The notes under the pieces are model-generated. The model did not search any database, was not told the origin of the DNA, and was given only the letters and a program-made list of their open reading frames with translations. Positions 6,390 to 10,154 of a stretch of 64,000 bases of DNA are shown in pieces. Numbering within the stretch: the first letter of the stretch is position 1; every line of letters starts with the position of its first letter. The DNA comes from Shinella fusca. Its GTDB lineage: Bacteria > Pseudomonadota > Alphaproteobacteria > Rhizobiales > Rhizobiaceae. The stretch covers positions 186,001 through 250,000 of the forward strand of contig NZ_JACHIK010000003.1 in assembly GCF_014203155.1 (NCBI RefSeq). The letters run 5' to 3'. The translations under genes and the position numbers were made by a program.

Positions 6390-7799
6390 ATGACGACTGC
6401 CAACGATATCCTCAAGCAAATCAAGGAAAACGACGTAAAGTTCGTCGATCTGCGCTTCACCGACCCGAAGGGCAAGATGCATCACCTGACGATGGACGTC
6501 GGCTGCGTCGACGAAGACATGTTCGCCGACGGCGTCATGTTCGACGGCTCCTCGATCGGCGGCTGGAAGGCCATCAACGAATCCGACATGGTGCTGATGC
6601 CCGACCCGGCGACCGTTCACATGGACCCGTTCTTCGCCCAGTCCACCATGGTCGTCATGTGCGACATCCTCGACCCGGTCTCCGGCGAAGCCTATAACCG
6701 CGACCCGCGCGGCACGGCCAAGAAGGCCGAAGCCTACCTCAAGGCCTCGGGCATCGGCGACACCGTCTATGCCGGCCCGGAACCGGAATTCTTCGTCTTC
6801 GACGACGTCAAGTACAAGGCAGACCCGTACAACACCGGCTTCAAGCTGGATTCCTCGGAGCTTCCCTCCAACGACGACACCGACTACGAGACCGGCAACC
6901 TCGGCCATCGCCCGCGCGTCAAGGGCGGCTATTTCCCGGTTCCCCCGGTCGATTCGTGCCAGGACATGCGCTCGGAAATGCTGACGGTCCTCACCGAGAT
7001 GGGCGTCACGGTCGAAAAGCAGCACCATGAAGTGGCCGCCGCCCAGCACGAGCTCGGCGTCAAGTTCGACACGCTGGTGCGCAGCGCCGACAAGGTGCAG
7101 ATCTACAAGTACGTCGTGCATCAGGTCGCCAACGCCTACGGCAAGACGGCCACCTTCATGCCGAAGCCGATCTTCGGCGACAACGGCTCGGGCATGCACG
7201 TCCACCTGTCGATCTGGAAGGATTCCAAGCCCCAGTTCGCCGGCGACGAATATGCCGGCCTTTCGGAAAGCTGCCTCTACTTCATCGGCGGCATCATCAA
7301 GCATGCCAAGGCGATCAACGCCTTCACCAACCCGACGACGAACTCCTACAAGCGTCTCGTCCCGGGCTATGAAGCGCCGGTCCTGCTCGCCTATTCGGCC
7401 CGCAACCGCTCGGCGTCGTGCCGCATTCCGTTCGGCACGGGTCCGAAGTCCAAGCGCGTCGAGATCCGCTTCCCCGACCCGCTCGGCAACCCCTATCTCG
7501 GCTTCGCCTCCATGCTGATGGCCGGCCTCGACGGCATCAAGAACAAGATCCATCCCGGCAAGGCCATGGACAAGGACCTCTACGACCTGCCGCCGAAGGA
7601 ACTGAAGAAGATCCCGACCGTCTGCGGCTCGCTGCGCGAAGCCCTCGAAAGCCTCGACAAGGACCGCAAGTTCCTGACGGCCGGCGGCGTGTTCGACGAC
7701 GACCAGATCGACAGCTACATCGAGCTGAAGATGGCCGAGGTCATGCGCTTCGAAATGACCCCGCACCCGGTCGAATTCGACATGTACTACTCCGCCTGA
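6390..7799 (+). CDS. glnA: type I glutamine synthetase
   Basis: 469-aa GSI, which makes glutamine from glutamate, ammonia and ATP as a dodecamer. Conserved elements include [25 protein letters not shown], the metal-binding [10 protein letters not shown], the [10 protein letters not shown] segment and the [10 protein letters not shown] block. The adenylylation tyrosine is Tyr398 in [10 protein letters not shown], so the enzyme is expected to be regulated by GlnE. A good SD (AGGAA) precedes ATG 6390. A strong terminator follows directly. Length is standard for the family. Confidence 0.98.
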
Positions 7800-7824
7800 T
7801 CGGCGCAGCAGATTGCTGATACGG

Positions 7825-7851
7825 AAAACCCGGCCATCGGCCGGGTTTTTT
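7825..7851 (+). terminator. intrinsic terminator after glnA
   Basis: A 7-bp GC stem (CCCGGCC, 3-nt loop ATC, GGCCGGG) at 7829-7845 is followed by six T residues. The run of A on the left side would also let it act on the minus strand. It lies 25 bp past the glnA stop. Confidence 0.9.
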
Positions 7852-7886
7852 GTTGTCGGGATGTCGGTCGCGCGGTGGGTGGCGTG

Positions 7887-8024
7887 CGGATCCTCGGGTC
7901 AAGCCCGAGGATGACGACAGGAGGGAAGTATGAGGCAAAAGCAGCGTTGCCGCGTGCCGCCCCACCCAACGGACAGGCGACCTTTCCTCCTCTCCGTCAT
8001 CCTCGGGCTTGACCCGAGGATCCA
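7887..8024. repeat. hairpin-repeat pair 1 (glnA/TAXI convergent gap)
   Basis: Two 30-bp copies in opposite orientation, 7887-7916 and 7995-8024, 78 bp apart. Each copy has a 7-bp arm CCTCGGG, a 5-nt loop (TCAAG or its complement CTTGA) and the mirrored arm, with asymmetric flanks (GGAT on one side, ATGACG on the other). Here the ATGACG sides face inward. The pair lies between the glnA terminator and the end of the TAXI gene. Confidence 0.9.
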
Positions 8025-8042
8025 CGCGCCACCCTCCACCCG

Positions 8043-9077
8043 CTACTGCTGCAGCCGCTGCTTGAGCAGGTTGAGGTATTCCTCGTTCGAATCGTCCGCG
8101 CCGCCGCCGGCCTTTTCGGCGGGCGGCTTGCAGGCGGGCTTGTAGTCGAGGGCCATGCCGGCCTTTACGCAGACGCCGACCTGCCAGCCGGGCGGCAGCG
8201 CCGTGAGGTCCACCGTCTTCCATTTCGGATGGCCGGTCGCCTTCAGCTTGTCGAGGCCGGTGAGGATGAGGCTGGAGAAATCCGCGACCGCCTTGCAGCT
8301 CTCGCGGTGATAGGCATTGCGCTTGATGTCGTAGTCGTAGGTCATCATCACGGCCTTGACCGCGATGAGGTCGACCGGCTGGTCCTGGAAGGAATAGGTG
8401 CCGGCCTCGATGCGCGAGGGCGTGTAGGTTGCGAGCAGCGGCGCCTCGGTGATCGGCACCAGATGGAATTTCGCCTTGTCGATGGCATTGCCGGTGAAAA
8501 GCGCGGCCGGCGCGCCGGCGACGTAGAAGAAGGCGTCGATCTCGCCGGAAAGCAGCTTCGGCAGCGCCTCGTCCGGGTTGATGTCGATCCGCTCGCCGGC
8601 CTTCACCTGCAGGATATCCATGATCAGGGTGGCGGTGAGGAAGGTGCCGCTGTCCTTCTTGCCGACGGCGATCTTCCGGCCGGCAAGGTCCTTCATGCTG
8701 GCAATGTCCTTGCGCGCGAGGACATGGATCTCCTCGTTGTAGAGCGGGAACATGATGCGCACGCCCTTCACGGCCTTCTGCACTTCCGGGTCGTTCGCCT
8801 CGAAGGTCTTGAGATATTCCAGCACGTCGCTCTGTACGATGCCGAACTGCGTGTTGCGGCGGTTGCGCACGCCGACGAAGTTTTCCAGCGAACCGGCGCT
8901 TTCGACGACGTTGAGCGTCAGGCCGCAATCGGCGCCGAGCGCGGCGATATCGCGGCCGATCTGGATATAGGTGCCCTGCGGGCCGCCCGTCATGATATTG
9001 CGCTCGAAGCCTTCGGCCGAGGCGCCGCCCACCGAAAGCGCAAGGCCGAGCGCGGCCGCCAGAACAGATCGCTTCAT
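8043..9077 (-). CDS. TAXI-family TRAP transporter solute receptor (orphan)
   Basis: 344-aa secreted protein with a signal peptide (about residues 1-22, cut near SVGGASAEG). The body matches the TAXI group of periplasmic receptors: MTGGPQGTYIQIGRDIA near the start, an ESAGSLENFVGVR block, and DLAGRKIAVGKKDSGT in the middle. TAXI receptors normally feed a fused DctQM membrane component, but no such gene is nearby; the only likely operon partner is the coiled-coil membrane protein 48 bp upstream. The C-terminal tail is Lys/Pro rich with extra Cys residues. The substrate cannot be predicted. It may be a receptor for a transporter encoded elsewhere or a sensing protein. Confidence 0.85.
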   Translation of the reverse strand: MKRSVLAAALGLALSVGGASAEGFERNIMTGGPQGTYIQIGRDIAALGADCGLTLNVVESAGSLENFVGVRNRRNTQFGIVQSDVLEYLKTFEANDPEVQKAVKGVRIMFPLYNEEIHVLARKDIASMKDLAGRKIAVGKKDSGTFLTATLIMDILQVKAGERIDINPDEALPKLLSGEIDAFFYVAGAPAALFTGNAIDKAKFHLVPITEAPLLATYTPSRIEAGTYSFQDQPVDLIAVKAVMMTYDYDIKRNAYHRESCKAVADFSSLILTGLDKLKATGHPKWKTVDLTALPPGWQVGVCVKAGMALDYKPACKPPAEKAGGGADDSNEEYLNLLKQRLQQ

Positions 9078-9125
9078 CGTTGTCTCCTTCCAAATCCGGC
9101 GCCGGCGCCGCTGTAGAACGGACCC

Positions 9126-10154
9126 CTAGCAGTCGCTGTCGAGGTCCCGCATCAGGTTGCGCAGCGCCAGCACGGGCACGCGTTTGAAGACGCCGCCGAG
9201 CGCATTGGTCACGCATTCGCCGGAAACCAGCGTCCGCTCAAGCCGGTCGCGCTGCGTGTCGTTCAGCCGGTCGAGCCCGGGCGTATCCTGCATCGCGCGG
9301 GCGACAAGCGCCGCATCGCGCGGATTGCGGCCCTCGGACGGCTTTGCCGTGTCGCGCACCGGCTTTTCGGCGCCGTCGACCGGCCGGCTCGGCTGCGCCG
9401 CGCGGCTGGCCGCCTCCAGCGCGGCGACCCGCGTTGTCAGCACGCCGTTTTGCGCCTTGAGCGCGGCGATTTCCTTGTCCTTGCGGGCGATTTCGGCGCG
9501 AAGGGCCGGCAGGTCGCCGGTCCTCACCTTCTCCGCCGCGGCCTGCGCCTCGGAGAGCTGGCGCCGCAAGGTATCGGCTTCCGCTTCCAGCCGCTCGGTC
9601 TCCGCCGTCTGGGCGGCATTCTCGTCGCTGCGGGCGGCATCCAGCGCCTTTTCCAGCCGGGCGATCTGGTCCGCGCCGAGGGAAAGCCGGCGTTCGCGGT
9701 CGCGCACCGCCTCCTCCGCCCGCGCCTTCAGCGCCTCGGCATCGGCGATGCGCTGGCGGGCAAGCTCCAGTTCGTTCTTCAGGCCCGGAATGGTTTCCTG
9801 CGTCAGGCGGGCATATTCGGCCTCGGAAACCGCCGCCTGGGGGGCGGACGCCGCGCTGTCGAGCGCCTCGACCCGCTGTTTGAGCGCCGCGTTCTCCTTG
9901 AGGAGCGCATCGGCCTTCCGCCCGCTTTCGTCGATCTCCTGAACCCGGGCGTCGAGCTCCTTCGCAAGATCGGCGATGCGCCGGTCGCGCTGCTCGATCT
10001 CGTCCGAGGGCGCGCTGTCGCCGGTGAAACGGAATGCGGCATAGCCGGCCGCCCCGCCGAGCGCCAGGCAAACGAGGGACGCGAACAGGATGCCGCCCGC
10101 GCCGCCCCGGCCTGCCGCCGGCCCGCTGCCGTTTCTGCCCCATTGGTTGTTCAT
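9126..10154 (-). CDS. membrane-anchored coiled-coil protein of unknown function
   Basis: 342-aa protein I do not recognise. After a Gly-rich cytoplasmic start there is one membrane helix (about residues 21-42, ILFASLVCLALGGAAGYAAF), then a long charged, Ala/Glu/Arg-rich stretch to about residue 250 with heptad-like coiled-coil character, a Pro-rich linker, and a compact C-terminal domain ending LRNLMRDLDSDC with a second Cys in SGECVTNALGG. Start MNNQWG (ATG 10154) is preferred over an upstream in-frame start because the residues before it look non-coding. It precedes the TAXI receptor by 48 bp on the same strand and probably shares its transcript. It is divergent from hspQ. Confidence 0.75.
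   Translation of the reverse strand: MNNQWGRNGSGPAAGRGGAGGILFASLVCLALGGAAGYAAFRFTGDSAPSDEIEQRDRRIADLAKELDARVQEIDESGRKADALLKENAALKQRVEALDSAASAPQAAVSEAEYARLTQETIPGLKNELELARQRIADAEALKARAEEAVRDRERRLSLGADQIARLEKALDAARSDENAAQTAETERLEAEADTLRRQLSEAQAAAEKVRTGDLPALRAEIARKDKEIAALKAQNGVLTTRVAALEAASRAAQPSRPVDGAEKPVRDTAKPSEGRNPRDAALVARAMQDTPGLDRLNDTQRDRLERTLVSGECVTNALGGVFKRVPVLALRNLMRDLDSDC

Follow-up and report, generated by a model that had tools for sequence, protein, structure and literature searches.

TAXI-TRAP transporters are always found with a fused DctQM, according to the part of a 2018 review available to us (PMC5812351). The receptor gene analysed here lies in a 64,000-nucleotide stretch of Shinella fusca DNA (the window), part of contig C3 of a 4.85-Mb draft genome. 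Its product resembles the receptor of the TAXI-TRAP system VcGluP-VcGluQM in fold, glutamate-contact residues and signal peptide. It differs from the system described in the accessible sections of that work by the lack of DctQM, by an H-x-K-W motif in place of H-x-G-A, and by linkage to the gene of a coiled-coil membrane protein (PMC11574862). Orphan TRAP receptors are already in print, and as precedent for a TAXI receptor whose membrane partner is not of the TRAP type we found only the TAXI-GltS system of Bordetella pertussis (2025; PMC12344293). There, as here, a TAXI receptor with a glutamate-type pocket is freed from TRAP and linked to a different membrane protein; the partner in that system is the symporter GltS (PMC12344293), whereas the protein linked here is not a transporter and the genome gives no GltS match. 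Receptors without an adjoining membrane component are also described among the TTT/Bug proteins (AdpC), but AdpC belongs to another receptor family and the available text names no fixed non-transporter partner for it (PMC5812351). No publication on a TAXI receptor paired with a coiled-coil protein was found in the open-licence literature.

In LuxP-LuxQ and ChvE-VirA a soluble flytrap receptor acts via a membrane partner, as is proposed here. The membrane partners of those systems bear cytosolic kinase domains, whereas the one encoded in the window has only a short WGR tail.

The receptor and coiled-coil genes

The gene of the coiled-coil partner lies directly upstream of the receptor gene, both on the minus strand, and the 48 nt between them contain an AAGGAG site. 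The coordinates that a sequence-only reading of the window had given for the two genes are exact. The features of the pair are the following:

8043..9077, minus strand: TAXI-type periplasmic receptor, 344 aa (TIGR02122 and PF16868 profiles; fold match to 9ibo, 8s4j, 8u79 and 1us4)
8220..8231, minus strand: H-x-K-W motif, receptor residues 283-286, which marks TRAP-free TAXI (motif counts across receptor sets)
9015..9077, minus strand: signal-peptide-like N-terminus of the receptor, residues 1-21, ending in GASA (sequence reading)
9084..9089, minus strand: AAGGAG ribosome-binding-like site of the receptor gene (sequence reading)
9126..10154, minus strand: single-pass coiled-coil partner, 342 aa (sequence reading, hydropathy, heptad test)
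9129..9326, minus strand: conserved 66-residue four-helix head with two invariant cysteines (43-sequence alignment, AlphaFold2)
9381..10004, minus strand: periplasmic coiled coil of the partner, residues 51-258 (heptad test; weak Fourier test)
10035..10091, minus strand: transmembrane helix of the partner, residues 22-40 (hydropathy)
10134..10142, minus strand: WGR motif in the short cytosolic tail of the partner (motif count over pair loci)

An alternative ORF call makes the partner longer, with a TTG start that reaches 10214. Promoter and terminator scans stayed at chance level.

The receptor scores over the curated cutoffs of both TAXI profiles (TIGR02122, 118.8 bits for a cutoff of 84.35; PF16868, 90.7 bits for a cutoff of 27). 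Its predicted fold is the solved TAXI fold (Foldseek E 3.6e-20 to 9ibo, TMt 0.76, for a model of the head fused to the receptor). The nearest solved structures are all TAXI proteins; the titles of 9ibo, 8u79 and 1us4 give them as glutamate-bound, that of 8s4j as glutamate-specific. The closest relatives are from Shinella, with 88-93% identity, among the best 80 of 87 relatives found by a scan of genome contigs. The fusion used for folding follows an in-frame readthrough from head to receptor and gave confident domains (pTM 0.76) with an interface that is not readable. In the pair loci the frame of the receptor relative to the head falls in each of the three phases (31/29/19 of 79), so the readthrough of the window was used as a folding construct only and is without biological meaning.

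The partner has one hydrophobic segment, at residues 22-40. The heptad signal over residues 51-258 reaches p about 0.04 in a windowed test, and p<0.05 was obtained for 70 of the 76 homologues tested; a Fourier test on the window partner alone is weak (p 0.07-0.14 at 3.4-3.6 residues). Its C-terminal head, whose positions L33, C38, L43 and C66 are invariant in an alignment of 43 sequences, is predicted by AlphaFold2 as four helices with a mean pLDDT of 95.6 and a pTM of 0.83. Hydropathy, heptad test and head alignment thus bear out the earlier description of a single-pass protein with a long coiled coil and a Cys-containing C-terminal domain. Partner length varies across loci between about 285 and about 800 aa (start codons picked by rule, partial copies set aside) while the head is conserved. 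The window protein matches no Pfam or NCBIfam family over cutoff, and a Pfam scan of the 43 heads gave one weak match, in one member only. The best E against PDB sequences is 0.74. Against PDB folds no Foldseek E of 0.001 or lower was obtained (best VIA Z 4.8), which is no demonstration of a new fold. Two PHROGs match the partner, both over the stalk only. The head is thus a conserved domain without a Pfam entry, to which we draw attention.

The coiled coil had been proposed to be periplasmic, and this placement is the most likely one. It rests on the positive-inside charge in Rhizobiales-type loci (over 64 loci the mean net charge is +1.7 on the N-terminal side of the membrane helix and -1.1 on the other side) and on the N-termini of the Rhodobacterales partners, which mostly read as signal peptides; the annotated L158 partner, which has no hydrophobic N-terminus, is an exception. 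The cytosolic tail of the window partner would then have ~21 residues, too short to hold a conventional cytosolic signalling domain, and no output domain is found in it. The WGR motif of this tail is present in 59 of the 64 Rhizobiales-type loci, with L063 added on a longer look, and in 0 of 15 other loci. It is missing from the frameshifted L088 and from the partners in L065, L066 and L067, which are loci of tandem TAXI genes.

Conservation and co-occurrence of the pair

The same 66-residue two-cysteine head ends the gene directly upstream of TAXI in 79/79 readable loci, so that the synteny check proposed with the sequence-only reading finds the pair conserved. These loci, mostly from Rhizobiaceae and Rhodobacterales, come from the best 80 of 87 relatives in the contig scan; one of the 80, L068, begins within the receptor gene, and the remaining 79 are readable upstream. 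Heads were found by pattern in 61 of them (gap of 1-129 nt to the receptor gene), by reading of the same output in 17 and separately in L057. Both genes are frameshifted in L088 and the partner is present only in part in L075, L085 and L086. As the search used exact peptide patterns of the query and kept the best 80, distant pairs are under-sampled.

Adjacency alone is weak evidence in Rhizobiaceae because the whole surrounding region, from glnA to mfd and including hspQ, is syntenic around the pair in many of them. In Rhodobacterales loci the pair is kept in the same order and the glnA, hspQ and mfd neighbours were not found. Matches to glnB and uvrA are left out of this comparison, as the two queries were out of frame. 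A survey of 151 family genomes gave 15 with both head and receptor, one with the head only, none with the receptor only and 135 with neither (Fisher 9e-20; receptor threshold E <= 1e-60; two of the 16 heads are weak matches, E about 2e-5). Head and receptor are adjacent in 14/15 genomes with both. In the remaining one, G341, head and receptor are on separate contigs, and neither has the other within 14-16 kb. The genome with the head only, G432, belongs to the genus of G341 and has a completeness of 83%; its head likewise has no receptor within 6 kb. Across the class, sampled evenly with 289 genomes, two genomes gave the head, and it is these two that hold the two strongest receptor matches. 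The conserved pairing and this co-occurrence support the functional coupling of the two gene products, which had been suggested as partners from the window alone.

H-x-K-W receptors and the glutamate-type pocket

The window receptor carries H-x-K-W, in its C-terminal third, where canonical TAXI proteins have H-x-G-A. Exact H-x-K-W was found in 79/79 pair receptors, in 23/25 distant orphans and in 0/40 canonical receptors. The wider form [HQ]-x-[KRQ]-W covers 25/25 of the distant orphans (by residue, W 25/25, H 24/25, K 23/25). H-x-G-A/S is present in 39/40 canonical receptors, 22 as HPG[AS] by pattern and 17 more by reading. As controls we picked 40 of the strongest PF16868 matches, each from a different genome, and took flanks of 4 kb; the orphans have mostly about 5 kb of flank (less in L125, L146 and L148, and L100 is at a contig edge). 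With a profile built from the control set, DctM was detected within the fetched flanks of 33/40 canonical receptors and 0/25 distant orphans (Fisher 5e-12), and in 1/90 pair loci, where it lies inside a set annotated with its own receptor.

The neighbours of the distant orphans vary. Twelve of the 25 adjoin a protein whose C-terminus is Sel1/TPR-like, which in L103 and L104 also has an AAA-like nucleotide-binding region; three adjoin a zinc-ribbon protein with a membrane helix and a TPR-like part, three a small one-helix protein, and four a Ser/Thr kinase (L125, L126, L127, L128). Three of the kinases have a cyclic-nucleotide-binding domain, and one has a membrane helix and is followed by a PP2C phosphatase; two of the four genes are divergent from the receptor gene. 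In two cases the receptor is fused to a putative second binding domain (by reading), and one orphan is at a contig edge. Pfam cutoffs are exceeded by the kinase, cyclic-nucleotide and PP2C matches but by none of the Sel1, TPR and AAA matches among orphan neighbours; the profile scan covered nine of the 15 Sel1/TPR-type neighbours, and the labels of this set are partly by reading. No profile match was obtained for the neighbours in L150 and L154 (scanned), nor for that in L101, and the membrane helix of the L156 neighbour disappears if the annotated start is used. The coiled-coil pair is one branch of a wider TRAP-free TAXI set with differing membrane and signalling neighbours.

Two side observations concern these orphans. 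The fused proteins (L152:4025-6403, L153:5049-7505) have ~800 residues, with the H-x-K-W TAXI domain after the putative second periplasmic binding domain. In L142 the one-helix neighbour ends in ADLLSIIDRQ and the receptor in KDLLNIIKGQ; in L099 the partner ends in RELLTILSKY and the receptor in KDLLNILDKK. These C-terminal peptides possibly represent a shared docking peptide.

The reported glutamate contacts of VcGluP from V. cholerae are Y45, S75, Q93, E125, G156, Y200, G203, M201, H123 and D157 (PMC11574862, as given in the available part). By alignment, the first seven correspond to Y37, S63, Q82, E115, G144, Y185 and G188 of the window receptor, so that Y45, S75, Q93, E125 and Y200 of the VcGluP-like pocket are all present; M201, H123 and D157 are replaced by V186, Y113 and T145. 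Each of the seven mapped residues is retained in 75-79 of 79 pair receptors (the 80 loci minus the frameshifted L088), the misses being the truncated L068 and the first copies in L065-L067. Because these contacts are retained, the ligand in the coiled-coil branch is likely glutamate or a close relative. Among the 25 distant orphans the pocket varies more (Y37 21/25, S63 22/25, Q82 16/25, E115 23/25, Y185 3/25), and ligands across the class may therefore differ.

In each of L065, L066 and L067, from three species, an intact receptor is accompanied by one or two further copies, which retain H-x-K-W but have all of Y37, Q82, E115, G144 and Y185 replaced. Between species the corresponding altered copies have 73-86% identity and dN/dS estimates of 0.04-0.15, and the intact copies 61-73% identity and estimates of 0.09-0.20; with synonymous change close to saturation, these estimates are approximate. 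The altered copies look to be under purifying selection, and a pocket-independent function seems to be maintained in them.

In many Rhizobiaceae the receptor gene and glnA (identified by reading; window 6390-9077) face each other, a convergent arrangement that is suggestive together with the glutamate-type pocket; glnA was not found in Rhodobacterales pair loci. A palindromic repeat of the CTCGGG-TCAAG-CCCGAG type occurs twice between glnA and the receptor gene (7879-7911 and 7996-8030, by reading).

Proposed function and competing explanations

With moderate confidence, we propose that the pair forms a tethered ligand-sensing or scaffolding module that is independent of TRAP and not an importer, in which the receptor docks on the membrane-anchored head. 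The receptor would be a Venus-flytrap protein with a pocket fitting L-glutamate or a close relative. It would dock, probably via its H-x-K-W C-terminal region, on the membrane-anchored partner and not on a permease. That partner would have one helix as its anchor, a long coiled-coil stalk in the periplasm that varies in length, and the four-helix two-cysteine head, and in Rhizobiaceae only its WGR tail would reach the cytosol. Ligand binding might alter the contact between receptor and partner (sensing), or the contact might keep the receptor in place (tethering). We counted in favour of this module the conservation of the pair, its joint presence and absence in family genomes (also where unlinked, in G341), the DctM counts around orphan, pair and canonical loci, the retained VcGluP contacts, the four orphans that adjoin kinases, the altered-pocket copies, the missing GltS match and the fact that no permease was found unpaired. 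Counted against it were the head-receptor fold with no readable interface, the less uniform pocket of the distant orphans, the Rhizobiaceae partner without a cytosolic output domain, the possibility that the receptor is shared with a permease encoded elsewhere, the divergence of two of the four kinase neighbours and the sub-cutoff Sel1/TPR and AAA matches.

It is unlikely that ligand binding is secondary and that receptor and stalk, in Rhodobacterales with a Sel1-like-repeat membrane ATPase, form an envelope structure. The wide length range of the partner around a conserved head and the persistence of altered-pocket copies would suit such a scaffold, and an AAA_22 gene with a Sel1-like repeat adjoins the receptor gene, convergent to it, in 10/16 Rhodobacterales pair loci (for example L076:7021-9360, L084:5865-8252 and L158:5947-7677). 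The C-terminal part of this protein is unassigned. AAA_22 is over the Pfam cutoff in the two genes scanned, and in 7/9 proteins checked one membrane helix lies between the two parts (it is elsewhere in L083 and there is none in L079). This ATPase is a candidate for the output in Rhodobacterales. However, the other 66 pair loci yielded no such gene nearby, and no clear homologue turned up in the window's genome: a single-protein search for this ExeA-like ATPase of Rhodobacterales, run without a positive control, was empty, and a profile search gave weak partial matches only, the best being a 1336-aa Sel1 and peptidoglycan-binding protein. Furthermore, an intact-pocket copy is present in every readable pair locus (the truncated L068 and the frameshifted L088 left out), from which we argue that ligand binding matters.

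Still less probable is that the receptor serves uptake by borrowing a distant TRAP permease, while the coiled-coil protein merely keeps it near the membrane. Such receptors classically serve uptake, the pocket is intact, and the genome holds two long, fused TAXI-type DctM permeases. Its inventory comprises three TAXI-family proteins and four DctM genes, three of the latter on contig C23 (one reported in two pieces) and one on C8; contig C3, which holds the window, gave no DctM match, in agreement with the earlier observation that the receptor has no TRAP membrane component nearby. However, all four permeases have a receptor gene adjoining. The two fused ones, on C23, each lie beside one of the two other TAXI proteins, and the other two have a separate DctQ and an adjoining DctP receptor gene (on C8, on the opposite strand). 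The location of DctQM genes, proposed earlier as a check, thus yields four TRAP permeases, each with a receptor gene beside it, and the window receptor has neither an adjoining nor an otherwise unpaired DctQM in this genome. The two canonical TAXI receptors of the same genome carry HPGA, in line with the H-x-G-A found in 39/40 canonical receptors, against H-x-K-W in the window receptor. The fetched flanks of the 25 other orphans hold no DctM, and altered-pocket copies are retained. The receptor is a TRAP orphan, and a role other than uptake, as had been hinted from the sequence, is the likelier one; that related bacteria retain or lose the two genes jointly points to sensing or tethering. A TAXI-GltS system was rejected for this genome, as no PF03616 match was obtained in the draft assembly with a search that was positive in the controls E. 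coli and C. glutamicum.

Chance adjacency of unrelated periplasmic genes is very improbable and was rejected: the glnA to mfd region is syntenic in many Rhizobiaceae, but the same gene order is conserved in Rhodobacterales without those neighbours, presence and absence are joint in the 151 genomes, and both genes are retained though unlinked in G341.

Beyond the proposed module of this locus, we tentatively regard the H-x-K-W TAXI proteins as a separate receptor class that left TRAP transport and whose membrane partners are interchangeable. These partners would be coiled-coil stalks, Ser/Thr kinases, zinc-ribbon TPR-like proteins, and Sel1/TPR-like proteins, some of them with a cytosolic AAA-like domain. 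In the coiled-coil branch the ligand would be either glutamate itself or a molecule that bears it, possibly a fragment of the wall, and it may be different elsewhere; in some species pocket-less copies might be structural or regulatory subunits beside a ligand-binding copy. Four annotated plasmid matches are named "TAXI family TRAP transporter solute-binding subunit", and proteins with such names are consequently counted as importer parts. If the H-x-K-W class is independent of TRAP, many of these names mislead, and one short motif would distinguish transport receptors from the others. The pair also suggests how alphaproteobacteria could sense glutamate-like ligands in the periplasm, via a stalked membrane partner, and this route can be tested.
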